Notes under the pieces: model-generated | The model's database searches: none | Told to the model about the DNA's origin: nothing | Seen by the model: only the letters and a program-made list of their open reading frames with translations | Translations under genes and position numbers: made by a program | Shown here: piece after piece, positions 40,640 through 56,001 of the stretch | Layout: each line of letters opens with the position of its first letter | How positions within the stretch are numbered: position 1 is the first letter of the stretch | NCBI GenBank assembly: GCA_030148725.1 | Contig: JASBSU010000046.1 | Coordinates: forward strand, 1-64,000 | DNA from: Hyphomicrobium sp. | Lineage (GTDB): Bacteria; Pseudomonadota; Alphaproteobacteria; Rhizobiales; Hyphomicrobiaceae | Direction: 5' to 3' | DNA: 64,000 nt

Positions 40640-40815
40640 CAGCCCGTAGAAGGGCGCGCTTGCAGAACGGGCGCGCCCCTACAGCCTTGCGAACCGCCCC
40701 GCTCAGTGGCTGACACAACCCGATAGCGCCCACTTTCCTTTGCAAAGCGGCGATGCGAAAACGAATGTAGATTCGTCTTTCAGCGTCGCCGCAGACGCTT
40801 GGGGAAACGCCGCCG

Positions 40816-41886
40816 ATGACGGCTGCCAGCGCAAGTGCAAACAGCACCATCGTCCCACAGCCGGTCACAGCGCCCCTGACGCGCTCGGCCATCTTCCTCG
40901 TCCTGTCCATCAATCCCGGTCAAGAAAGCTGTGCGGCAGTTCGCAGCTTCTGCTCGGATCTTCCCGGCCTGTTTCGCGCCGTCGAGTTTCGCAACATCGA
41001 GGCCGGCCTCAGCTGTGTCATGGGCATCGGGTCTGACGCGTGGGACCGGATGTTCGGCAGCCAGCGCCCCGCCGAGCTGCATCCGTTCCGCGAAATCCGT
41101 GCCGGCGCGCGCCACGCCGTATCAACGCCCGGCGATCTGCTGTTTCACATTCGTGCCAAGCGCATGGACCTCTGTTTCGAGCTCGCGACGCGCATCATGG
41201 AAAGCCTCGGCGACTCTGTCTCGGCTGTCGATGAGGTGCATGGTTTCCGCTACTTCGATGATCGCGACCTGTTGGGTTTCGTGGATGGAACGGAGAACCC
41301 GCGCGGGCAGGAGATCGCGGAAGCCGCGCTCATCGGAGACGAGGATCCGCTATTCGCTGGCGGCAGCTATGTCATCGTGCAGAAATACCTGCACGACATG
41401 GCCGGCTGGAACGCGCTTTCCACCGAAGCGCAGGAGCGCATCATCGGCCGCAAGAAGCTTTCCGATATCGAGCTTGCCGAAAACGTAAAGCCGACGTCCG
41501 CCCACAATGCGCTGACCACCATCACCGAGGACGGCAAAGAGTTCAAAATCCTGCGCGATAACATGCCGTTCGGAAGCGTCGCTGCCGGGGAGTTCGGCAC
41601 ATATTTCATCGGCTACTGTCGAACCCCGCGCACCACCGAACAGATGATCGAGAACATGTTCGTCGGCCGCCCGCCCGGCAATTACGACCGGCTGCTGGAT
41701 TTCAGCCGCGCCGTCACTGGTTCTCTGTTCTTCGTACCATCGTCGACGCTGCTTGAATCCCTCGCTGACGATCCTGCACCAGCAGCACCTGCGGCGCCCA
41801 CCACCGAAACCCCAGCAATCGTGACAGCAGCGCCGGATGGCTCGCTCGGCATCGGCTCGCTCAAGGGAGAGGAAAGCTATGAATAA
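40816..41886 (+). CDS. DyP-type haem peroxidase with encapsulin targeting peptide
   Basis: 356 residues. The DyP signature GFVDG (residues 154-158, catalytic Asp157), the proximal haem ligand His230 (SAHNALTT) and the distal Arg247 (LRDNMPFG) are all present. After residue 315 comes a flexible Pro/Ala/Thr-rich linker, then DGSLGIGSLKG at 341-351. This is almost identical to the cargo-loading peptide that binds the inner face of family-1 encapsulins, as known for the Brevibacterium linens DyP. The gene overlaps the shell gene by 8 bases, so cargo and container are translated together. The physiological substrate of encapsulated DyPs is not known; dyes and aromatics are oxidised in vitro. Confidence 0.97.
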   Translation: MTAASASANSTIVPQPVTAPLTRSAIFLVLSINPGQESCAAVRSFCSDLPGLFRAVEFRNIEAGLSCVMGIGSDAWDRMFGSQRPAELHPFREIRAGARHAVSTPGDLLFHIRAKRMDLCFELATRIMESLGDSVSAVDEVHGFRYFDDRDLLGFVDGTENPRGQEIAEAALIGDEDPLFAGGSYVIVQKYLHDMAGWNALSTEAQERIIGRKKLSDIELAENVKPTSAHNALTTITEDGKEFKILRDNMPFGSVAAGEFGTYFIGYCRTPRTTEQMIENMFVGRPPGNYDRLLDFSRAVTGSLFFVPSSTLLESLADDPAPAAPAAPTTETPAIVTAAPDGSLGIGSLKGEESYE

Positions 41887-42688
41887 TCTTCATCGCGAGC
41901 TTGCGCCGATTTCCGACGCCGCTTGGGCGGACATCGAGCAGGAGACGAAGCGCACCTTGAAGCGCAACATGGCTGGTCGGCGCGTTGTCGATGTGGCGGC
42001 GTCCGGCGGCGTGGCTCTCTCAGCCGTTGGCACCGGCCACCTCGAGACGATTGCCGCACCTGCCGCGGGCATCCTCGCGCGCCAGCGTGAAGTAAAGCCG
42101 CTGGTCGAGTTTCGTGTCCCCTTCGAACTCGACCGCGAGCAGATCGATGACGTCGAGCGCGGGGCGGAGGATTCCGATTGGCAACCCGCCAAGGACGCTG
42201 CGCAAAAAATCGCCTTCGCCGAGGACCGCGCCATTTTCGAGGGTTACGCGGCTGCAGGCATTGTGGGCATCCGCCAAGGCACCAGCAATCCCGTGATGAC
42301 CCTGCCGACAGACGTCCGGCAGTATCCGGACGCCATCTCACAAGCCCTGAGCCAGTTGCGCCTTGTTGGCGTCAACGGACCTTACGCCGTGGTCCTCGGC
42401 GCCGATGCCTACACCGCGCTCGCCGAGGTGAGTGACAACGGATACCCGGTGCTGGAGCACATCCGGAAGCTGGTCAAGGATGAGATCATCTGGGCGCCCG
42501 CCATCAGCGGCGCATTCGTGCTGACGAAGCGCGGCGGCGACTTCGGGCTGCACATCGGACAGGACATATCGATCGGCTATCTGAGCCACACCGACACCAA
42601 GGTGCGCCTCTACCTGCAGGAGACGCTGACGTTCCTACTTCTCACAACGGAAGCCGCCGTCGCCCTCTCGCGTCCCAAAAGCAAATAG
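41879..42688 (+). CDS. Encapsulin shell protein (family 1)
   Basis: 269 residues. HK97-fold encapsulin: start MNNLHRELAPISDAAWADI, then GTGHLETIAAPAAG, LVEFRVPFELDREQIDDVER, AFAEDRAIFEGYAAAGI, NGPYAVVLGADAYTALAE, and the end QETLTFLLLTTEAAVAL. Sixty copies normally build a 24-nm T=1 shell around the cargo. GGGAGAGG in the end of the DyP gene serves as ribosome site. No second cargo gene (ferritin-like protein) is next to it; the peroxiredoxin downstream on the opposite strand has a signal peptide instead of a targeting tail. Confidence 0.97.
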   Translation: MNNLHRELAPISDAAWADIEQETKRTLKRNMAGRRVVDVAASGGVALSAVGTGHLETIAAPAAGILARQREVKPLVEFRVPFELDREQIDDVERGAEDSDWQPAKDAAQKIAFAEDRAIFEGYAAAGIVGIRQGTSNPVMTLPTDVRQYPDAISQALSQLRLVGVNGPYAVVLGADAYTALAEVSDNGYPVLEHIRKLVKDEIIWAPAISGAFVLTKRGGDFGLHIGQDISIGYLSHTDTKVRLYLQETLTFLLLTTEAAVALSRPKSK

Positions 42689-45100: not shown

Positions 45101-47356
<2,256 letters not shown>

Positions 47357-47360
47357 CGAC

Positions 47361-47390
47361 GTGACGCGCAGTTGATTTTCTGCGCGTCAC
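47361..47390 (+). terminator. Stem-loop after parC
   Basis: GTGACGCGCA (47361-47370) pairs perfectly with TGCGCGTCAC (47381-47390) around a 10-nt loop rich in T. It begins 5 bases after the parC stop. No T-run follows, so efficiency is uncertain. Confidence 0.6.
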
Positions 47391-47511
47391 CGCATCGCGT
47401 TCGAACAAGCGCAAAACTCGTGTCACCGTCTCAACGAGTTAGGCCGGATTCGTGCAATCCCGGCTTGGCCGAAATGGGTAGTTGCGTTGACATGGTCTGA
47501 TGTAAAGTTGG

Positions 47512-49257
47512 GTGCCAGCGGGATCACTCAGGCAATCGGACGGCATCGTGTTCAAGGATGAGATCGACGTCCTTCGGGATCGCATCAAGGCGCTCGAAGA
47601 AGAGAATGCACGGCTCCAGTTGGACGCGGTCGCAGGCCGCCACCGCGCCGAGACCGCCCTCGCGGTGCGCGAGAGACAGTACCAGACTCTCTTCAATTCC
47701 ATCGATGAAGGGTTCTGCATCATCGAGTTCATCGACAGCGAGCATGGTCCGCTGAGCGATTATATCCACATCGAGGCGAACCCGGCTTACACGCGCCACG
47801 CCGGCATCCCGAACGTCGTCGGGCAGAAGGTCCGCGAAATGGTGCCCGGCGAGGCCGAGGGCTGGGTGCAGCTTTATCGAGACGTGCTCCTGACCGGCAA
47901 CGCGATCCGTTTTGAACGCGAGTTGATCGCCACCGGCCGCTATCTCGAGTTGGCGGCGTTCCGTATCGAGCCGGCGACGCAGCGTCAGGTCGCCGTGCTG
48001 TTCCAGGACATCACCGCGCGCAAACGCGCCGAGGCGAACCTGCAGCAGCTCAACGAAACGCTGGAGGCGCGCGTCGTCGAGGCGCTCGCCGAGCGCAAGG
48101 TGGCAGAAGATGCGCTCCGCCAGTCGCAGAAGATGGAAGCAGTCGGCCGGCTGACCGGCGGCATCGCACACGACTTCAACAACATGCTGGCGATCATCAT
48201 CAGCAGCCTGCGGCTAGCTGAACGCAAGGTCGAACGCGGCGATTTCACCATTCGCAAGTACCTCGACAGCGCGCTCCACGGCGCACAGCGGGCCGCCACT
48301 CTTGTTGCCCGACTGCTCGCGTTTTCGCGCCAGCAGCCGCTCTCGCCGCAGCGTGTTGAAGCAAACCGTTTGGTGAGCGGGATGGAGGAAGTCCTCCGCC
48401 GCACAATACCTGAGAGCATCCAGATCGAGCTCGTACAAGCGGGCGGGCTGTGGAGCCTGCTCGCCGATCCGCATGGCCTCGAGAGTGCAATTCTCAACCT
48501 CGCGGTGAATGCCCGCGACGCGATGCCGGACGGCGGCAGGCTCACCCTCGAAACGGCCAATGCCTATCTCGACGAAGCCTATGCAGACGCGCACGCCGAT
48601 GTCGCCGCCGGCCAGTACGTGTTGATTGCCGTCACCGACACCGGCTGCGGCATGACCCCGAATGTCATTGCGCACGCCTTCGAGCCGTTCTTCACGACAA
48701 AGGAAGTCGGTGCGGGCACGGGGCTGGGGCTCAGCCAGGTCTACGGCTTCATCAAGCAGTCCGGCGGGCACGTCAAAATCTACAGCGAGGTCGGCGTGGG
48801 CACGACCGTCAAGCTGTACTTCCCGCGCCTAAGCCAACCGAAAGGCTCGACAAGCCCCGAGCCAGCGCCGAGCACTGCCCTGATGCCGAACGGCAAAGGC
48901 CAGCTCGTGCTGGTCGTCGAGGACGACGATGACGTACGGCGATTGACGGTCGACATACTGACGGAGCTGGGGTTCACCGTAGTGCCGGCGAACGGAGCGG
49001 AAGAGGCCCTGCGCCTGCTGCCGCAGCACCCCGAAACGGTTCTGCTGATGACCGACGTCGTGATGCCCGGCATGAACGGCCGCAAGCTCGCTGAAAAAGT
49101 TCGCGCGCAGCGGCCGAACATCAAAGTGCTCTTCACGACCGGATACACGCGCAACGCCATCGTGCACAACGGCATCCTCGACGAAGATGTCGAGCTGATC
49201 ATCAAGCCTTATTCGCTCGAAGCGCTCGCGGCGAAGCTCGCACGCATCTTGGCCTGA
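47512..49257 (+). CDS. Cytosolic hybrid histidine kinase with PAS and C-terminal receiver domains
   Basis: 581 residues from a GTG; a second GTG at 47548 is equally possible as neither has a good ribosome site. Domains: short coiled coil (15-55), PAS (about 55-170), coiled coil (172-205), dimerisation/phosphoacceptor helix with His220 (GRLTGGIAHDFNN), ATPase domain (NLAVNARDAMPDGG, DTGCGMTPN, GTGLGLSQVYGF), and a receiver (VVEDDDDVRRL, acceptor Asp in LLMTDVVMPGMNG, KPYS). No membrane segment, so it senses a cytoplasmic signal. The terminal receiver likely feeds back or passes phosphate on; no partner regulator gene is adjacent. Confidence 0.9.
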   Translation: MPAGSLRQSDGIVFKDEIDVLRDRIKALEEENARLQLDAVAGRHRAETALAVRERQYQTLFNSIDEGFCIIEFIDSEHGPLSDYIHIEANPAYTRHAGIPNVVGQKVREMVPGEAEGWVQLYRDVLLTGNAIRFERELIATGRYLELAAFRIEPATQRQVAVLFQDITARKRAEANLQQLNETLEARVVEALAERKVAEDALRQSQKMEAVGRLTGGIAHDFNNMLAIIISSLRLAERKVERGDFTIRKYLDSALHGAQRAATLVARLLAFSRQQPLSPQRVEANRLVSGMEEVLRRTIPESIQIELVQAGGLWSLLADPHGLESAILNLAVNARDAMPDGGRLTLETANAYLDEAYADAHADVAAGQYVLIAVTDTGCGMTPNVIAHAFEPFFTTKEVGAGTGLGLSQVYGFIKQSGGHVKIYSEVGVGTTVKLYFPRLSQPKGSTSPEPAPSTALMPNGKGQLVLVVEDDDDVRRLTVDILTELGFTVVPANGAEEALRLLPQHPETVLLMTDVVMPGMNGRKLAEKVRAQRPNIKVLFTTGYTRNAIVHNGILDEDVELIIKPYSLEALAAKLARILA

Positions 49258-49303
49258 GGCGCCGCGCGGCGCTGCGTTACGTCGAGCGTGTGCGCCCGCC
49301 AAT

Positions 49304-50038
49304 TTAGTGTCCCGAGCCGAGCTTGTAGACGACGCCGGTCGTCGCGGTGCCGACGAACGGATCGAAGTTGAGCTGGAACACCGGAGAGATGCCGGTCTCG
49401 CGGCGCACGTCCTTGCTGTAGTCCGCATACCGGACCTCGCTACGCCAGAACCAGCCATCGTGCATGGCGACTTCGAGCCCGCTGCCGACGAACCAGCCGC
49501 TGGCGCTGTAGCTCTCCAGGTAGCCGTTCGGCAGCGGCGCGCCGGTGTAGCTGTTGCGCAACCCGCCGCCGGAGAAGTTCGTTTGCGTGTAGCCGACGCT
49601 CCAGTAGTTGAGAATGTCCGGCGTCATCAGCCACCCGGCGCGAGCACCGATGAACCAAGTGCTGTCGTTGCTCGTCTCCGCGGTCGTGAAGACGGCATCG
49701 CTGGTCCGGCCGGTGATATCCGCGAAGTTATAGTTGAACAGCACGCCGCCGACGATCCGCGAGCTGAACTGGTAGTCATAGCCAAAGCCGACCTCACCGA
49801 GCCATCCCTTGCCCGCATGATCGGTTTTCGCGCACGACACGCAGCGTCCCGGCGCGTCCGTGGTCGTCGAAGCGCTCCACATCCCGTAGCCGACGCCGGC
49901 GTTCGCGTAGAGGCCGGTCCAGATAGGGATCTGCGCCGTGACCGGCGCTCGCGCCGGCTCGTAACCATCGGCGACCGCTGTACCCGCGGCACATATCAGA
50001 AGCGACGCGACAACGACTGCAGAGGAAGGCCGGCGCAT
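49304..50038 (-). CDS. Outer-membrane beta-barrel protein (Omp25/Omp31-like)
   Basis: 244 residues from the ATG at 50038, with AGGAG 7 bases upstream. Signal peptide (AVVVASLLICAAGTAVA). The mature chain alternates polar and aromatic residues as expected of an eight-stranded barrel: WTGLYANAGVGYGMWSAS, GEVGFGYDYQFSSRIVGGV, STWFIGARAGWLMTPDIL, GWFVGSGLEVAMHDGWFW. The last strand ends GVVYKLGSGH. Such proteins are structural major outer-membrane proteins in Rhizobiales. Confidence 0.88.
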   Translation of the reverse strand: MRRPSSAVVVASLLICAAGTAVADGYEPARAPVTAQIPIWTGLYANAGVGYGMWSASTTTDAPGRCVSCAKTDHAGKGWLGEVGFGYDYQFSSRIVGGVLFNYNFADITGRTSDAVFTTAETSNDSTWFIGARAGWLMTPDILNYWSVGYTQTNFSGGGLRNSYTGAPLPNGYLESYSASGWFVGSGLEVAMHDGWFWRSEVRYADYSKDVRRETGISPVFQLNFDPFVGTATTGVVYKLGSGH

Positions 50039-50163
50039 CGATATCTCCTGATAAAGATCAAAGCTCCCGATACAAGCTGCTGTCGTCGGATTCGCAGTGC
50101 TGCGTCCTGCGAAGGTTGCGAGACCTCCACCGCTTGCCCACAGGAAATTCACAAGGCGACCGG

Positions 50164-50787
50164 TCAGGGCCAGCGCGAAAAGCACTGCACGAAGTAGGTG
50201 CAGTCCGCGAAGAAACACGACCCGTTGGCAACGCCGACACCGATGTGATTCATCTCCGTGCCGACAAGATGTTTCCGGTGCCCTGGCGAGCCGAGCCACA
50301 TCTTGAGTGCGCTCTCGGGCGTCGTCCCGTTCCCCCGCGCGATGTTCTCCGTCACGCGGATCACGCGCTGCCCGCTTATGTTGCGGCGCTTGTAACGGCT
50401 CGTCGGAGAGCTGCCATCCGGCCCGAAGTGGTTGAAGTACCCGCGCTTTGCCATATCCCGAGCATGGTCGAAGGCGGCCGCCGAGCAGACCGCATCTTCC
50501 TTGAACTCCGGCAGTCCGTTGCGCCGGCGAAAATCGTTGGTGATCTTGATTGTCTCCGCCGCCTGCTGCTGGAGTACGCTGAGTTGCCGCGGTGGCGCAG
50601 CTGGCGCAGCTTGCGCGGGCGGGTGCGGTGGTGGGCTCTGGGGCGTGGTCTGCGTCTGCCACTCACCGGCGAGCGCGGCAGGAGCCAACGACGCGAGCAG
50701 GGCCAGAGCGCGCAGAGCAACGGCAACGCTGGATATCAGAGGCTGAAGCCGTGCGCGCCGCTGCCTGGGCGCAGGTCTGGACACCAC
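50164..50787 (-). CDS. Secreted CAP-domain (SCP/PR-1) protein
   Basis: About 207 residues if started at the GTG at 50787; the frame stays open to 50943 but the hydrophobic signal segment (VALRALALLASLAPAALA) lies soon after 50787. A Pro/Ala/Gln-rich linker precedes the CAP domain: FDHARDMAKRGYFNHFGPDG and VTENIARGNGTTPESALKMW, then SPGHRKHLVGTEMNHIGVGV. The His and Glu residues of the CAP cavity are kept. Two late cysteines may form a disulfide. Bacterial CAP proteins are secreted and of unknown role. Start uncertain. Confidence 0.85.
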   Translation of the reverse strand: MVSRPAPRQRRARLQPLISSVAVALRALALLASLAPAALAGEWQTQTTPQSPPPHPPAQAAPAAPPRQLSVLQQQAAETIKITNDFRRRNGLPEFKEDAVCSAAAFDHARDMAKRGYFNHFGPDGSSPTSRYKRRNISGQRVIRVTENIARGNGTTPESALKMWLGSPGHRKHLVGTEMNHIGVGVANGSCFFADCTYFVQCFSRWP

Positions 50788-50941
50788 GTTTTCCCGACGG
50801 GCGATGTGCCGCAATCCGAATCTCTCCTCGAACGCGTCACCGTATCGAGCAGGATTGTCGCCAATTAGGGGCGCGCCGATACGATGGATACGTTGCGCCG
50901 CCACAGGCGTTTGAAACTCACAAACTGAGGAGAAAGCGCTC

Positions 50942-51532
50942 ATGAAGCTCTACTACGCCCCTGGCGCCTGCAGTCTGGCCGACCACATTGCCCTTCACGA
51001 AGCAGACATTCCCTTCTCGCTCGTGCGCGTCGATCTGAAGACGCACAAGCTGGAGGATGGCCGCGCCTATACCGAGATCAATCCGAAAGGCTCGGTGCCC
51101 GCGTTGCAGTTCGACGATGGCGAAGTGCTCACCGAAAACCTCGCCATCCTCGCCTATATCGCCGACCAGAAGCCCGAGCTGGCGCCGCATGGTCCACTGG
51201 CGCGCTACCGGCTGCTCGAGATGCTCTCTTACCTCGCGTCGGAGCTGCACAAGGCGTTTCATCCGCTGTTCGTGCCGCGCTCGACGCCTGACGAGAAGAA
51301 GCAGGCAGCCGCCGCCGTTGAGCAGAAGCTTGGCTACCTCGCGGACAAACTAGACGGCCCCTACCTTCTTGGCACGCATATGACGGTCGCCGATCCGTAC
51401 CTCTACGTCATGCTGACGTGGGCGGACGACATGAAGATCAAAGTGCCCGACAAGCTCGCAAGCTTCAGCCAGCGGATGGCCGAGCGGCCCGCGGTCAAGC
51501 GCGCCCTCGCTCACGAAGGTCTCTCCGGCTGA
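50942..51532 (+). CDS. Glutathione S-transferase (beta class)
   Basis: 196 residues. Thioredoxin-like N-terminal domain MKLYYAPGACSLADHIALHE, with Cys10 as the beta-class active residue, the cis-Pro in GSVPALQF, and ENLAILAYIAD for glutathione binding. The all-helical C-terminal domain includes YLLGTHMTVADPYLYVML. It conjugates glutathione to electrophiles or reduces peroxides. GAGGAGAAAG lies before the ATG. It is divergent from the CAP gene. Confidence 0.93.
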   Translation: MKLYYAPGACSLADHIALHEADIPFSLVRVDLKTHKLEDGRAYTEINPKGSVPALQFDDGEVLTENLAILAYIADQKPELAPHGPLARYRLLEMLSYLASELHKAFHPLFVPRSTPDEKKQAAAAVEQKLGYLADKLDGPYLLGTHMTVADPYLYVMLTWADDMKIKVPDKLASFSQRMAERPAVKRALAHEGLSG

Positions 51533-51635
51533 TAAGGCCGCCACGGCAGCCGTGCAATGTGGGCAATGCGCGTTGCACGGAATTTGCTGCTTTCAATATC
51601 GGGGCCATTTCGAATTAGAACAACGCAAAACTACC

Positions 51636-51866
51636 GTGCCCGAAAAGCATATTCGTCACGACGAAAAGGGTGTGACGCAAGATCGTATTGCCATTGAACC
51701 TGCTGTGGAAAACGGTCAAGTCAAATATCGTTTCTCGGTAGTTGCGGCGCCCGAGCAGGCAATCAAAAGCTGGCGCCGTTCCCACGGCGCACCAAAGAAA
51801 AGCATTAAAGAACAATGTGTTGTGGCGGCGAGGCGGGCGCGTAATCAGGGGGTTCTGCATATATAA
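51636..51866 (+). CDS. Possible small hypothetical protein
   Basis: 76 residues from a GTG with no clear ribosome site. The sequence RIAIEPAVENGQVKYRFSVV followed by a basic segment (SWRRSHGAPKKSIKEQ) has balanced composition and reads like a real protein, yet the region is less GC-rich than its neighbours and codon use differs. No family is recognised. It may be acquired or non-coding. Confidence 0.3.
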   Translation: MPEKHIRHDEKGVTQDRIAIEPAVENGQVKYRFSVVAAPEQAIKSWRRSHGAPKKSIKEQCVVAARRARNQGVLHI

Positions 51867-52158
51867 ATATCGAACAAAGATATAACAAAAACAATTCTAA
51901 CTGCGCCTGACGAGAATTTGATTTTCGAAATGCGAGAAAAAGAAAAGCAGAAATAATTATGATGCCGCATCTGGAAATCGGAAGCGACTTCTGACAAATA
52001 AGGGCGGTCCGCAATTCAGCCATTCAGGGTTTGCGGGAAATGGCGGCCGAATAGATTTGGTTTGCCAAATGAGCGCCCGCGCTTATTGCGCGCGCATTGG
52101 ACGGAGGCGCGAGGCGCACACCACCAACGCAAAGCAGAACCCCCACAGGAGAGTTACG
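51867..52158. other. AT-rich intergenic region upstream of the Gly/Gln-rich protein
   Basis: A marked drop in G+C is visible, especially 51860-51975, with A- and T-tracts absent elsewhere in the window. No gene is supported. The region could hold the promoter of the 52159 gene or be a transferred or silenced stretch. Confidence 0.45.
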
Positions 52159-52878
52159 ATGTCCCACAACGAGTACATCCCGTTCCAGCAGAACCAGCAG
52201 CCCGGCCAAGGCTGGGGTTTCGGCGGCGGCCAGGGCCAGGGTTGGGGTCAGGGCCAGGGCTGGGGTCAAGGCTTCGGCCACGGTTTAGGTCAGGCGGCAT
52301 TCGGACAGCAGGGCTTCGGCCAACAGGGCTTCGGCGGCTGGCAACAGGGTTCAGGTTGGGGCGGTGCGCCCTGGCAGCGCTCGGTATCGCAGCAGGACGT
52401 GGGTGAGATCATCCGCCATCTCGTTCCTCTGCTGCCTCACATCGTCAATCAGGCGCAGCAGCCGCATGCCGCGTTCGGTTACGGTTCCGGCTTCGGCGGC
52501 GGTGGTTTCGGCCAGCAGGGTTGGGGCCAGTCTCAGCAGGGCTGGGGCCAGGGACCGCGGTACCTTTCGCAGCAGGACGTGCATGAGGTCGTACGTCAGA
52601 TACTCCCCGCGCTTCCGCAGATCGTGAACGCGCTTCAGGGACAGCAGCAGGGCGGTTTCGGTAGCGCCATCTATGGTGGCCAGGGCGGCGGCGGCCAGGG
52701 CGGCGGCTGGGGCGGCCTCGGACAGGCAGCCTTTGGCAACGCCGGAAACGGGTATGGCGGACAGCGCCAGCTGAACCAGATCGACGTTGGCGAGGTCGTG
52801 CGCCAGCTCTCGTCCGTACTTCCGCAGGTCATCAGCAACCTACAGGCATTCAATCAGCAGCAGCAGCGCGGGGCCTGA
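52159..52878 (+). CDS. Low-complexity Gly/Gln/Trp/Phe-rich protein with three helical repeats
   Basis: 239 residues; AGGAGA precedes the ATG. Residues 14-72 are prion-like, built from GQGWGQG, FGQQGFG and similar units. Three copies of a 27-residue motif follow at 75-101, 135-161 and 204-230, with the core SQQDVGEIIRHLVPLLPHIV, SQQDVHEVVRQILPALPQIV and NQIDVGEVVRQLSSVLPQVI. These are amphipathic helices separated by more low-complexity linkers (105-133, 163-203). No signal peptide or membrane segment, so it should be cytoplasmic. The pattern of sticky helices joined by Gly/aromatic linkers suggests self-assembly or condensate formation, which is inference. The family is not known to me. It is followed by a gene whose product seems to share the helical motif. 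Confidence 0.88.
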   Translation: MSHNEYIPFQQNQQPGQGWGFGGGQGQGWGQGQGWGQGFGHGLGQAAFGQQGFGQQGFGGWQQGSGWGGAPWQRSVSQQDVGEIIRHLVPLLPHIVNQAQQPHAAFGYGSGFGGGGFGQQGWGQSQQGWGQGPRYLSQQDVHEVVRQILPALPQIVNALQGQQQGGFGSAIYGGQGGGGQGGGWGGLGQAAFGNAGNGYGGQRQLNQIDVGEVVRQLSSVLPQVISNLQAFNQQQQRGA

Positions 52879-52906
52879 ACCAAGGCGCCCCATCGCCAGA
52901 ACGACA

Positions 52907-52931
52907 GGAGGCCGCCAGCCCGGCGGCCTCC
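52907..52931 (+). terminator. Stem-loop after the Gly/Gln-rich gene
   Basis: GGAGGCCGCC (52907-52916) pairs perfectly with GGCGGCCTCC (52922-52931) around 5 bases, 28 bases after the stop at 52878. No T-run follows, so it may only attenuate read-through into the next gene. Confidence 0.5.
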
Positions 52932-52933
52932 GA

Positions 52934-52975
52934 CCTGACTGCTACCGTCCAACTGCTACCGCCTGACTGCTACCG
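52934..52975. repeat. Three tandem 14-base repeats
   Basis: Units CCTGACTGCTACCG (52934-52947), TCCAACTGCTACCG (52948-52961) and CCTGACTGCTACCG (52962-52975) stand head to tail between the stem-loop and the next gene's ribosome site. Copies 1 and 3 are identical. Confidence 0.85.
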
Positions 52976-52992
52976 ATTGAATGGAGCTACCC

Positions 52993-53469
52993 ATGTCGAA
53001 TTCACAGAATGCCGGCGGCTCGCGCGCAGGTGACACGCGCAACGCTGGCGCCCCCGATACGCAGGCGCTCGTCGGGCTGCTTGAAAACCTCGTCCCTTTG
53101 CTGCTGCACTTCCAGACCCAGTCTATCGGGCAGCTGGGACCCCTCGGCCCAGAGGGCGCGCGCTCGGCAAAGCTGGAGCAGGAGGCAGCGGTCGCCTTCA
53201 CCGAGGACATCATCCTCGACGCGCTGCGTAACCTGTCGACCTATGTGCAGAAGAACGCCAGCCGCTATCCCGGGCTCGACAGCTATGCGGGCATCCTCGC
53301 TGATGCGCGCCGCGCGCTCATTGCACGCGACTATCAGCGCGCGCTCTCCCAGATATTCGACGCCTACCGCGCGATCGCCGTTCTGCGCGCCATTCGGCCC
53401 GAGTTGCCACCCGTGCGGCAGCGTGCCTCGGACGAGCTATCGGGCAGCGGAGGCGACGCCGTGCACTGA
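52993..53469 (+). CDS. Hypothetical helical partner of the Gly/Gln-rich protein
   Basis: 158 residues; ATG 52993 is chosen because GGAG lies at 52983-52986 (52981 is an upstream alternative). After a disordered, Gly/Asn/Ser-rich N-terminus, residues 23-45 (DTQALVGLLENLVPLLLHFQ) match the helical motif of the preceding protein, sharing LVPLL-x-H with its first repeat. The rest is helical: FTEDIILDALRNLSTYVQ, ILADARRALIARDYQRALSQ, IFDAYRAIAVLRAIRPE. The tail is polar. Probably co-expressed with the 52159 gene and possibly binding it through the shared helix. No known family recognised. Confidence 0.75.
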   Translation: MSNSQNAGGSRAGDTRNAGAPDTQALVGLLENLVPLLLHFQTQSIGQLGPLGPEGARSAKLEQEAAVAFTEDIILDALRNLSTYVQKNASRYPGLDSYAGILADARRALIARDYQRALSQIFDAYRAIAVLRAIRPELPPVRQRASDELSGSGGDAVH

Positions 53470-53660
53470 CGCCGCGCCCGTTGCCAATAACGACGGCCGA
53501 TGAGCCGCCGCCACGCGGCAGGTGAGGAGCGCGCCACCACCGCTCCTCCACCTGTTGCCGAATGGTCGCGTGCCGCTGCTGATTTGCATTTCGGCCGATG
53601 CGAAACGCGCTGCGCTCCTGTTACGCTCCCTGACGATCGATCGGGAGTCGGCGGGGCAGC

Positions 53661-54680
53661 GTGGGCTGTATCGGGGACATCGGCAGGCGAGGTGGCCGGG
53701 CTTGGCATCCGGCTGACCAGCGTCGGCCGTACGGCGGCTGCGCTGAAACCGCGTTATCGGCAGCTCTCGATCTCGCGGCGATCGTCGGGCAGCGCGCCTT
53801 TACAGCCCAGGACCTGCGCCGCTCCTGCTCCGCTTGGATCGATGCGCAACTTCCCGCCGACGTGCGCCGACATCTGCATCGCGCCGTGAACGAGCGCCGA
53901 TCCGGACGAGCGATTGCAGGTCTCACGGTTTTGTCGGCTCTGTGTGGTTGGATCAACGGCGGCGATGAGGGTGCGCGCCTCGCTGTCACCAGCGCCATGC
54001 CCGAGCTTGCTGCCGCGCTCGCGCCGAGCGAGGCGATGCGCCGTCGCCACGACGCGCGAAGGCTGCACCCCGCCGATGCTCCGGAACTGTTTGCGGTTGT
54101 GTACGATGTCTGCCGTCGGGCCGGACTGCGTCGCATGCCGCAGGTCTACCTGCTGCCGGGCGAGCACGCGATGAACGCCTTCGCGCTGGGATCGCCGGAC
54201 GACCCGGTCATCACACTGACGCGCGGCCTTCTCGATGGCATGACGCGCAGCGAGGTTGCGGCAATCATCGCGCACGAGATCGCGCACATTTGCAACGGCG
54301 ACGCGTCGATCATGGCACTCGCTGGCGGTCTGCATCGCTCGATCCGCCTCGTGTCAGCGGCGAGCCTCGCCGGTATGCCGCGTCGTATGGCTGTGGCGCC
54401 CGAGACTGCGACGCTGATCTGGCTGCTGCAGGCCGCGCCCGCCATTGCCGAGCTGCTTTGCCTCGCGCTGTCTCGCATCCGAGAGCTTGCCGCAGATGCT
54501 TTCGCGCTCGATCTCATCGCAGAGCCCCACACGCTCGCCTCGGCGTTAGAGAAGCTCGAGCGTCACCACAGAGGGCTCGGCCACTCGCGTGCCGATGCCG
54601 AGGAGGGCGAGCTGTACGGCTATCTCCACAGCCATCCCTCGACCGATCAGCGCGTCAGCTTCGTGCACGTCCTCGCCTGA
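53661..54680 (+). CDS. M48-family zinc metalloprotease (HtpX-like)
   Basis: 339 residues if started at the GTG at 53661; a GTG at 53887 is an alternative, and the frame is closed by a stop at 53631-53633. The catalytic HEIAH motif lies at 205-209, with the third zinc ligand in the later ELAADAFALDL. MPQVYLLPGEHAMNAFALG and ITLTRGLLDGMTRSEVAAII match HtpX/M48B peptidases. Only weak hydrophobic segments are seen at 84-98 and about 245-265, so the usual membrane anchoring is less sure. HtpX-like enzymes degrade misfolded membrane proteins. It lies 190 bases after the helical protein gene. Confidence 0.87.
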   Translation: MGCIGDIGRRGGRAWHPADQRRPYGGCAETALSAALDLAAIVGQRAFTAQDLRRSCSAWIDAQLPADVRRHLHRAVNERRSGRAIAGLTVLSALCGWINGGDEGARLAVTSAMPELAAALAPSEAMRRRHDARRLHPADAPELFAVVYDVCRRAGLRRMPQVYLLPGEHAMNAFALGSPDDPVITLTRGLLDGMTRSEVAAIIAHEIAHICNGDASIMALAGGLHRSIRLVSAASLAGMPRRMAVAPETATLIWLLQAAPAIAELLCLALSRIRELAADAFALDLIAEPHTLASALEKLERHHRGLGHSRADAEEGELYGYLHSHPSTDQRVSFVHVLA

Positions 54681-54746
54681 GACGAGAGGAACGGGGCAGT
54701 CCCTCGCCAGCGCAGTGTTGCCGGTGAAGGAGCGCCCCGTGTCGGC

Positions 54747-55037
54747 TCAGGTGGCAACCCTCGATTTCAGATATCCAAGGACGAGCGCCGTCAGGCCGCC
54801 CGAAACGCCGCCCGTGGCAAACGCGGAGACGATCGAGCCGACATCCAGCCCGCTGGCCGCAGCCGTGCCGCCAAGTCCGAGCAGCGCGGTGAGGATCTGG
54901 CCGCCGATGCCGCCGCCGAGTGCTCCGGCGATCGTATTTCCGAGCGGGCTGAGCCCTGTGTCCTTGTTGTAGGCGCCGGCAGCATTGCCGCCGAGTGCGC
55001 CGCTGACGAGTTGGATGAGAAGAGACGCAATATCCAT
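54747..55037 (-). CDS. Small Gly/Ala-rich membrane protein
   Basis: 96 residues from the ATG at 55037. Sequence begins MDIASLLIQLVSGALGGNAA and contains two long glycine-zipper-like hydrophobic stretches (LGNTIAGALGGGIGGQILTA, then SGGLTALVLGYLKSR). Small proteins of this composition, starting with a similar segment, are widespread in Rhizobiales but uncharacterised. It converges with the M48 protease gene. Confidence 0.7.
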   Translation of the reverse strand: MDIASLLIQLVSGALGGNAAGAYNKDTGLSPLGNTIAGALGGGIGGQILTALLGLGGTAAASGLDVGSIVSAFATGGVSGGLTALVLGYLKSRVAT

Positions 55038-55392
55038 GGAGCGGAGCCTTGTGCACGGCCGCAAAAACCGACCCGATGGTGCAATCCTCGTGGCCGCCGG
55101 CGGCGCGGCCCCCATCTCGCCGGTCGCACGATCCTAGGCGGGATGCCTTCGCCGCGACTTAAGCCTCACCTGGCAAATCAACCTTGTGACATTTGCCTAG
55201 AAGGAGACGCGTTGACCTGCCAAATCTCGCGGCGGGAAAAAGTCGCCGCTCGGCCGCAGATGCAACAAGGTCGACGGCCAAAAATCGGCCTCGCCCGCTG
55301 GCGTTACCGGGAGACAACGTGGCTGTAGCTCGAACCTCTGCACGCTGCTCGCGCGCTTGCCCGCCGACCGGGCGCCAGCTAGGACTTGTCCG
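55038..55392. other. Intergenic region between two divergent small genes
   Basis: 355 bases with no supported gene. Short open frames here lack ribosome sites and family features. The region must hold the promoters of the divergent 54747-55037 and 55393-56001 genes. Confidence 0.4.
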
Positions 55393-56001
55393 ATGAACGG
55401 GGTGGGACCAACAAGCATTCTGGCGGCGTTGCTGCTGGCCTTCGGTGTCGTGGCGGGAAGCCCCCTCGCGCGCGCCCAGGATGCTGCGCCGGACAACTCG
55501 TGGGATCCGATCGCGCCGGCCCCGGCCGCACCGCCGACCAAACCAGCCGAACAATTGCCGAAGGATCCGGCGACCAAGTCATGGGCGCCGCCGAACCTCG
55601 GCGCGCCATCGGACGCCACGCCAAAGCAAGTCTGCCAGAAGGCCGATTTCGAAGCGGTCGTCGACGATGCCGCGGGCGCGTTGCGCGACCTCAACCTGCA
55701 GAACAAGCCGGCGTTCCAGGAGAAGCTGCGTCAGCTCAAGGACAAGCGCGGCTGGAGCCACGACGCCTTCCTGAAGGAGGCCGCTCCGTACGTGCGCGAT
55801 GAAAAGATCGCCGTCTACGATCAGGAATCGGAGCGGCTGCTGGCTGACATCTCAACGCTTGGTCAGGAAGGTGCCGACGCGCCGACGCCAGACTGTGCGC
55901 TCCTTGCAGGTCTCAAGGATCGCATGAAGACGCTCGTCGATACCCAGACCGAGAAGTGGACCTACATGTTCCAGAAGCTGGAAGCCGCTCTGCAGCAGTA
56001 G
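55393..56001 (+). CDS. Hypothetical periplasmic protein
   Basis: 202 residues; AGGAC lies 8 bases before the ATG. Signal peptide ends at SPLARAQ. A Pro/Ala-rich linker (about 35-75) is followed by a helical domain with two cysteines that could pair (KQVCQKADFEAVVDDAAGAL and TPDCALLAGLKDRM). I do not recognise the family. It converges with bpt, 13 bases between stops. Confidence 0.72.
   Translation: MNGVGPTSILAALLLAFGVVAGSPLARAQDAAPDNSWDPIAPAPAAPPTKPAEQLPKDPATKSWAPPNLGAPSDATPKQVCQKADFEAVVDDAAGALRDLNLQNKPAFQEKLRQLKDKRGWSHDAFLKEAAPYVRDEKIAVYDQESERLLADISTLGQEGADAPTPDCALLAGLKDRMKTLVDTQTEKWTYMFQKLEAALQQ

Follow-up and report, generated by a model that had tools for sequence, protein, structure and literature searches.

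A three-gene locus in Hyphomicrobium

Within the window, a 64,000-nucleotide stretch of a Hyphomicrobium sp. contig, we analysed three consecutive forward-strand genes, referred to here as A, B and C (Table 1), which encode a repeat protein, a small helical protein and a metalloprotease, respectively. The preliminary description of this DNA had proposed a two-gene system. A and B do occur together in all three genomes with a strong B match, but the third gene, C, had been missed. The adjacency of B to A was described correctly, with 52993 (GGAG upstream, six bases between) being a better start for B than 52981.

Table 1 Features of the locus, in window coordinates; gene symbols A–C are ours.
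Feature	Coordinates	Strand	Description
Gene A	52159..52878	+	239 aa; three helix copies of 27 residues set in Gly/Gln/aromatic linkers; largely disordered by prediction
Helix copy 1 of A	52378..52458	+	Residues 74-100; helix profile E 9.8e-15 (profile includes this copy as a row)
Helix copy 2 of A	52558..52638	+	Residues 134-160; helix profile E 6.2e-16 (profile includes this copy as a row)
Helix copy 3 of A	52765..52845	+	Residues 203-229; helix profile E 8.5e-15 (profile includes this copy as a row)
Hairpin in the A-B gap	52907..52931	+	10 pairs; the two other genomes have hairpins of 9 and 13 pairs at the matching position
Gene B	52993..53469	+	158 aa; no family; predicted helices 23-45, 53-88, 97-110, 114-134 and, at low confidence, 142-150
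Gene C	about 53661..54680	+	Zinc metalloprotease of the M48 family (HtpX-like), HEIAH present; uncertain start codon

The three genes share the same order and strand in every genome having B (3/3), namely the window's genome, Hyphomicrobium sp. NDB2Meth4 (G006) and a member of another genus of the same family (G115), which together make up 3 of the 103 family genomes searched with a two-row B profile. Over aligned columns, the proteins of NDB2Meth4 are 77% (A), 70% (B) and 63% (C) identical to those of the window, and those of G115 60%, 63% and 47%, respectively. Between the window and NDB2Meth4, dN/dS amounted to 0.191/1.222 for A, 0.245/1.36 for B and 0.292/1.074 for C (Nei-Gojobori count; silent sites are near saturation, and saturated in one B pair). 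Non-silent change was rarer than silent change in all nine pairs (A, B and C in three genomes); A, B and C are therefore real genes, and all three are under purifying selection.

Distribution of the trio

Gene B was searched for with its own sequence in 100 relatives, with a two-row profile in the 103 genomes of the family, with a three-row profile in 397 genomes of the order and 385 of the class (the latter at E ≤ 0.001), and with short peptide patterns across 84,980 species. Beyond the three carriers, these relatives and the family, order and class genomes yielded nothing except weak matches at E 0.005-0.007, one in G029 (B alone, recovered by neither the two-row nor the three-row profile) and two in G189 and G415 (three-row profile). 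The pattern scan returned nothing with B alone and only NDB2Meth4 with the three-row profile; as G115 was not returned, either the 84,980-species collection or the scan is not exhaustive. Viral contigs scanned for peptide patterns of B and of A gave no match either, and a title search of the open-access literature found no publication on the trio.

A profile search with the helix motif had been suggested in the preliminary description as a check on whether the pair is conserved together. Across 102 family genomes it gave nine strong matches, three in each carrier genome (these repeats are rows of the profile); among 347 order genomes (E ≤ 0.001), only the window's own genome was matched. Ten weak matches at E 0.009-0.095, nine of them in nine other family genomes and one in the window's genome, were treated as noise. 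Searching with A as a single sequence additionally matched G080 (E 6.5e-5) and G075 (E 0.006), which we would guess to be low-complexity matching.

Gene A encodes a three-copy helix repeat protein with low-complexity linkers

When the 27-residue copies of the window protein were compared with one another, they scored 79, 71 and 65 (BLOSUM62), against a best 27-mer pair averaging 39.6 ± 5.5, and at most 56, when this protein was shuffled 200 times. Since the copy scores exceed the best pair of every shuffle, the copies are true repeats. The gene and the three helix copies reported in the preliminary description are borne out.

The three-copy layout is kept in each of the three orthologues, at spacings of 60/69, 61/55 and 50/114 residues. 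Pairwise alignments of the orthologues contained no gap columns in the repeats in any of the three pairs, as opposed to 40, 89 and 105 in the linkers. Copies 2 and 3 found their own counterpart as the best match in each of the other genomes (21 and 20 of 27 positions, respectively, between the window and G115). The same held for copy 1 between the window and NDB2Meth4 (19/27), whereas copy 1 of G115 shares only 14/27 positions with its counterpart in the window and is closer to copy 3 of the window (18/27). The copies are amphipathic, with an Eisenberg moment of 0.50-0.62 (two segments computed per copy, without a control), and each includes one to three prolines.

The linkers of the window protein consist of 39% G, 23% Q, 8% F and 6% W, and hold two charged residues in 158; the corresponding counts are 2/140 in NDB2Meth4 and 2/197 in G115, the latter having less Gly (23%) and more Asn (13%) than the window's linkers. 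Lysine is absent from A in all three orthologues. The term "prion-like", applied earlier to this protein, is a loose label for linkers rich in Gly, Gln and aromatic residues, while the multivalent-scaffold layout proposed alongside it is supported.

An AlphaFold2 (AF2) model of A, built from a two-sequence alignment, placed helices at the three copies with a mean pLDDT of 38, and pLDDT was below 50 at 227 of 239 residues. Such low confidence fits disorder, but the thin alignment could also cause it; as only two sequences entered the model and pLDDT is an indirect measure, the low values in A need not mean disorder. The N-terminus of A is not hydrophobic (within residues 1-40, the highest mean hydropathy of any 11-residue stretch is -0.72, -0.48 and 0.04 in the three orthologues), from which we infer that the protein is probably cytoplasmic.

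Neither A nor B passes the cut-off of any Pfam or NCBIfam model, in agreement with the earlier view that the layout fits no known family, and neither finds anything at E ≤ 0.1 in PADLOC or PHROGs. The Pfam model Keratin_2_head matched A below its cut-off (E 0.00086, 19.9 versus 28.2 bits) and was taken as low-complexity noise. The closest PDB sequences to the helix profile, Npl4 (E 2.6) and DHR14 (E 7.3), were not significant.

Gene B encodes a predicted helical protein, and the fourth copy proposed at its N-terminus is not supported

The AF2 model of B, a weak one built from two sequences, comprises four principal helices plus a short fifth of low confidence, with a mean pLDDT of 63, a pTM of 0.51 and pLDDT values of 70-90 at 63 of 158 residues. 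A Foldseek search with this model found nothing at E ≤ 0.001 (best 0.18), and the protein is without a strong hydrophobic segment. Several candidate matches were not significant: the NCBIfam acylphosphatase model (E 0.17, 12.1 versus 103 bits), SGTA among PDB sequences for the B profile (E 0.91), and four PDB chains at E ≥ 0.18 for B alone, three of which are named alphaRep.

A fourth copy of the A helix had been proposed at the N-terminal LVPLL(LH) site of B, which was paired with copy 1. This claim did not survive column shuffling, as 418 of 1000 shuffled B alignments reached the three-sequence score; in the window protein, the helix profile scored 9.56 bits at the LVPLL site, below the mean best score of 300 B shuffles (10.87). 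Both profile-versus-shuffle scoring and hhalign picked another site, VLRAIRPELPPV, near the C-terminus (residues 130-141). This second candidate is borderline: its score was reached by 44 of 1000 column shuffles and, for the three B sequences taken singly, by 85, 87 and 10 of 300 shuffles, and hhalign of the helix against B gave it a probability of 13%.

Gene C belongs to a distinct clade of M48 proteases

Protein C resembles M48/HtpX proteases in its match to Pfam PF01435 (98.2 bits against a cut-off of 20.3, E 6.6e-28 for the window protein) and in the HExxH zinc motif, present as HEIAH in all three C proteins. It differs from HtpX in falling below the cut-off of all eight HtpX equivalog models listed (NCBIfam; best 109.2 versus 422 bits) and in the absence of N-terminal hydrophobic segments. 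In a tree of 25 proteins, the C proteins of the trio are set apart from all others by a branch with 100/100 support. The tree draws on the 30 best-scoring loci of a longer family match list, five of which yielded no reading frame that passed the filter, and excludes the second, lower-scoring M48 matches of most genomes. By a crude test, none of these three has a 19-residue segment with a hydropathy of at least 1.6 before the HExxH motif, in contrast to all 22 others in the tree; after HEIAH, two of the three have one such segment. Because C is without a hydrophobic segment before HEIAH, unlike its 22 relatives in the tree, it may be soluble or only loosely membrane-bound.

A single-sequence search with the window's C across 102 family genomes scored 396 bits in NDB2Meth4, 234 in G115 and 129 in the next genome. 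With a three-row C profile, the best score outside the window's genome was 155 bits among 377 genomes of the order; the 620 bits of the window's own protein are inflated, this protein being a row of the profile. Separately, positions 53661-54677 of the window match phrog_23242, a phage protein family of function unknown (E 1.2e-34), at 121 bits, above the 98 bits of the Pfam match, and M48 relatives therefore sit within a phage protein family.

Intergenic features and genomic surroundings

The gaps between A and B contain hairpins with stems of 10 (window), 9 (NDB2Meth4) and 13 (G115) pairs, unlike in sequence, with z-scores against shuffles of -2.66, -1.17 and -2.64, respectively; the hairpin of NDB2Meth4 is not significant, with 26 of 200 shuffles folding equally well. 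A possible role of this element is that of an mRNA end, a stabiliser or an attenuator setting the A:B ratio; it is absent from the predicted terminators of the region. No sigma-70-type promoter was found in the trio region, and 191 bases separate the end of B from the assumed start of C. Given the A-B hairpins and this B-C gap, a single A-B-C transcript is unproven. The A-B gap of the window also holds three copies of CTGCTACCG (52939-52975), not seen in the A-B gaps of NDB2Meth4 and G115.

Twelve of the 14 window genes tested have matches in a 19.5-kb stretch of NDB2Meth4, and three of the 14, namely A, B and C only, in the 17-kb surroundings of the trio in G115. In the sibling genomes G002 and G001, the distance between the gene for topoisomerase IV subunit A and the gene matching 54747-55115 is 388 and 505 bases, respectively; in sibling G004, 175 bases separate the topoisomerase gene from the one matching 55357-55998. 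No match to A, B or C occurs in any of these stretches. In G003 and G005, no match to A, B or C was found in the stretches read, which stop short of the topoisomerase gene. The close flanks in the trio-less G001, G002 and G004 suggest that the trio was gained or lost in a variable spot.

In the window, this spot (47354-54746) lies between the topoisomerase IV subunit A gene and genes that are presumably Bpt and RimK. It is compact in G001, G002 and G004, whereas other genes fill 7 kb of it in the window and the set found in NDB2Meth4 is a different one. Two genes adjoining the trio, 54747-55115 (-) and 55357-55998 (+), encode small proteins without a significant family match, and both have matches in G001, G002 and G003, whose stretches are trio-free. 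Neighbours with an assigned family are a glutathione transferase gene, a CAP-domain gene and an outer-membrane-barrel gene.

Elsewhere in the window (40771-42685), an encapsulin shell gene (Linocin_M18, 6.2e-97) follows a gene for a DyP-type peroxidase (Dyp_perox_C, 1.2e-60), an arrangement that suggests an encapsulin compartment carrying peroxidase as its cargo. An encapsulin gene also lies ~3 kb from gene A in NDB2Meth4; as the 17-kb stretch of G115 has no match to it, encapsulin was dropped as a part of the set.

Comparison with known linker proteins

Pyrenoid linkers of the EPYC1 type have been sought as largely disordered proteins with repeating structured elements 20-120 residues apart (PMC11570498). 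EPYC1 and CsLinker, condensers of algal Rubisco, resemble A in having a largely disordered chain with repeated structured elements at such spacings and in being conserved only in close relatives (PMC11570498). The layout of A agrees with all three search properties: the low pLDDT along nearly all of A, an indirect measure from a two-sequence alignment, is consistent with a largely disordered chain, and all six repeat spacings in the three orthologues fall within the 20-120 range, with the helices themselves placed by a low-confidence model. A differs from EPYC1 in being bacterial, lysine-free and rich in Gly, Gln and aromatic residues in its linkers, and the genes beside it encode a protease and a helical orphan, not Rubisco. 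The trio may work like EPYC1, with no claim of sequence kinship.

The FAT domain of FAK is a four-helix bundle. The binding of Paxillin LD motifs to it offers a second likeness, that of several short helical motifs in a disordered chain binding a folded partner (PMC2572193, PMC12175908). For A and B this likeness is by analogy only, the B model having no significant structural match.

A possible linker, client and protease

Orphan genes are common; what lifts the trio above an ordinary orphan pair is its fixed linkage to a derived protease clade, together with the preserved three-copy layout of A. We tentatively propose, as a reading that is possible though short of probable, that the three genes work as a single functional set in which A is a multivalent linker clustering B, and C limits or dissolves the cluster. 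A would be an intrinsically disordered linker bearing three short amphipathic helices at spaced intervals, and these helices would dock onto the surface of B, itself helical, and perhaps onto A as well. Several B molecules would thereby be cross-linked into a cytoplasmic, condensate-like cluster, with the Gly/Gln/aromatic linkers assisting, and cutting of A or B by C would limit or dissolve it. As the conserved helical neighbour, B would be the obvious candidate for the client, and turnover would most naturally fall to C.

The nearest rival to this linker-client model is self-assembly of A, whereby the copies would pack together into filaments or a gel, with B as a cap or regulator rather than a bound client. 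Amphipathic copies (the moments being without a control) and aromatic/Gly linkers, which are of a self-associating type, would suit such packing, while prolines in every copy disfavour long coiled coils, and the sequence gives nothing to separate self-binding from B-binding; we regard self-assembly as somewhat unlikely.

Known HtpX members act in membrane protein quality control, and the HtpX models are the nearest to C within the M48 family. With C in fixed linkage to A and B, the trio might then be a quality-control set, in which C is the protease, B its adaptor and A a stress sensor or decoy, aggregated or soluble, and no cluster is formed for its own sake. Since C is without the hydrophobic segments that the remaining 22 tree proteins have at their N-termini, membrane quality control fits it less well, and we consider this explanation unlikely.

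We strongly doubt that A is an exported adhesin or matrix protein with B as its chaperone and C as its processing enzyme: Gly-rich repeat proteins are often exported and C is a protease, but A is without a hydrophobic N-terminal stretch and B without a strong hydrophobic segment, features with which signal-peptide-free export would remain compatible. The patchy presence of the trio and the adjoining flanks in the three trio-less siblings would fit a defence or toxin-antitoxin set at a site where genes come and go. This reading is nevertheless very improbable, as A, B and C match no PADLOC family at E ≤ 0.1, a tblastn search with B against 50,697 phage and 72,556 plasmid records gave no hit, and the family-bearing neighbours are of the three kinds listed above.

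Taken furthest, the linker-client model would make the three-gene cassette a bacterial membraneless compartment, with B as the client, A as a dedicated linker and C as a dedicated, largely de-membraned protease controlling assembly, an extension that we hold to be somewhat doubtful. If A does cluster B, the trio would be a compact bacterial counterpart of the pyrenoid linker-plus-client layout, with its own protease alongside. It would then provide a three-gene model for the building and clearing of a condensate, of a size that could be transferred to a laboratory strain.
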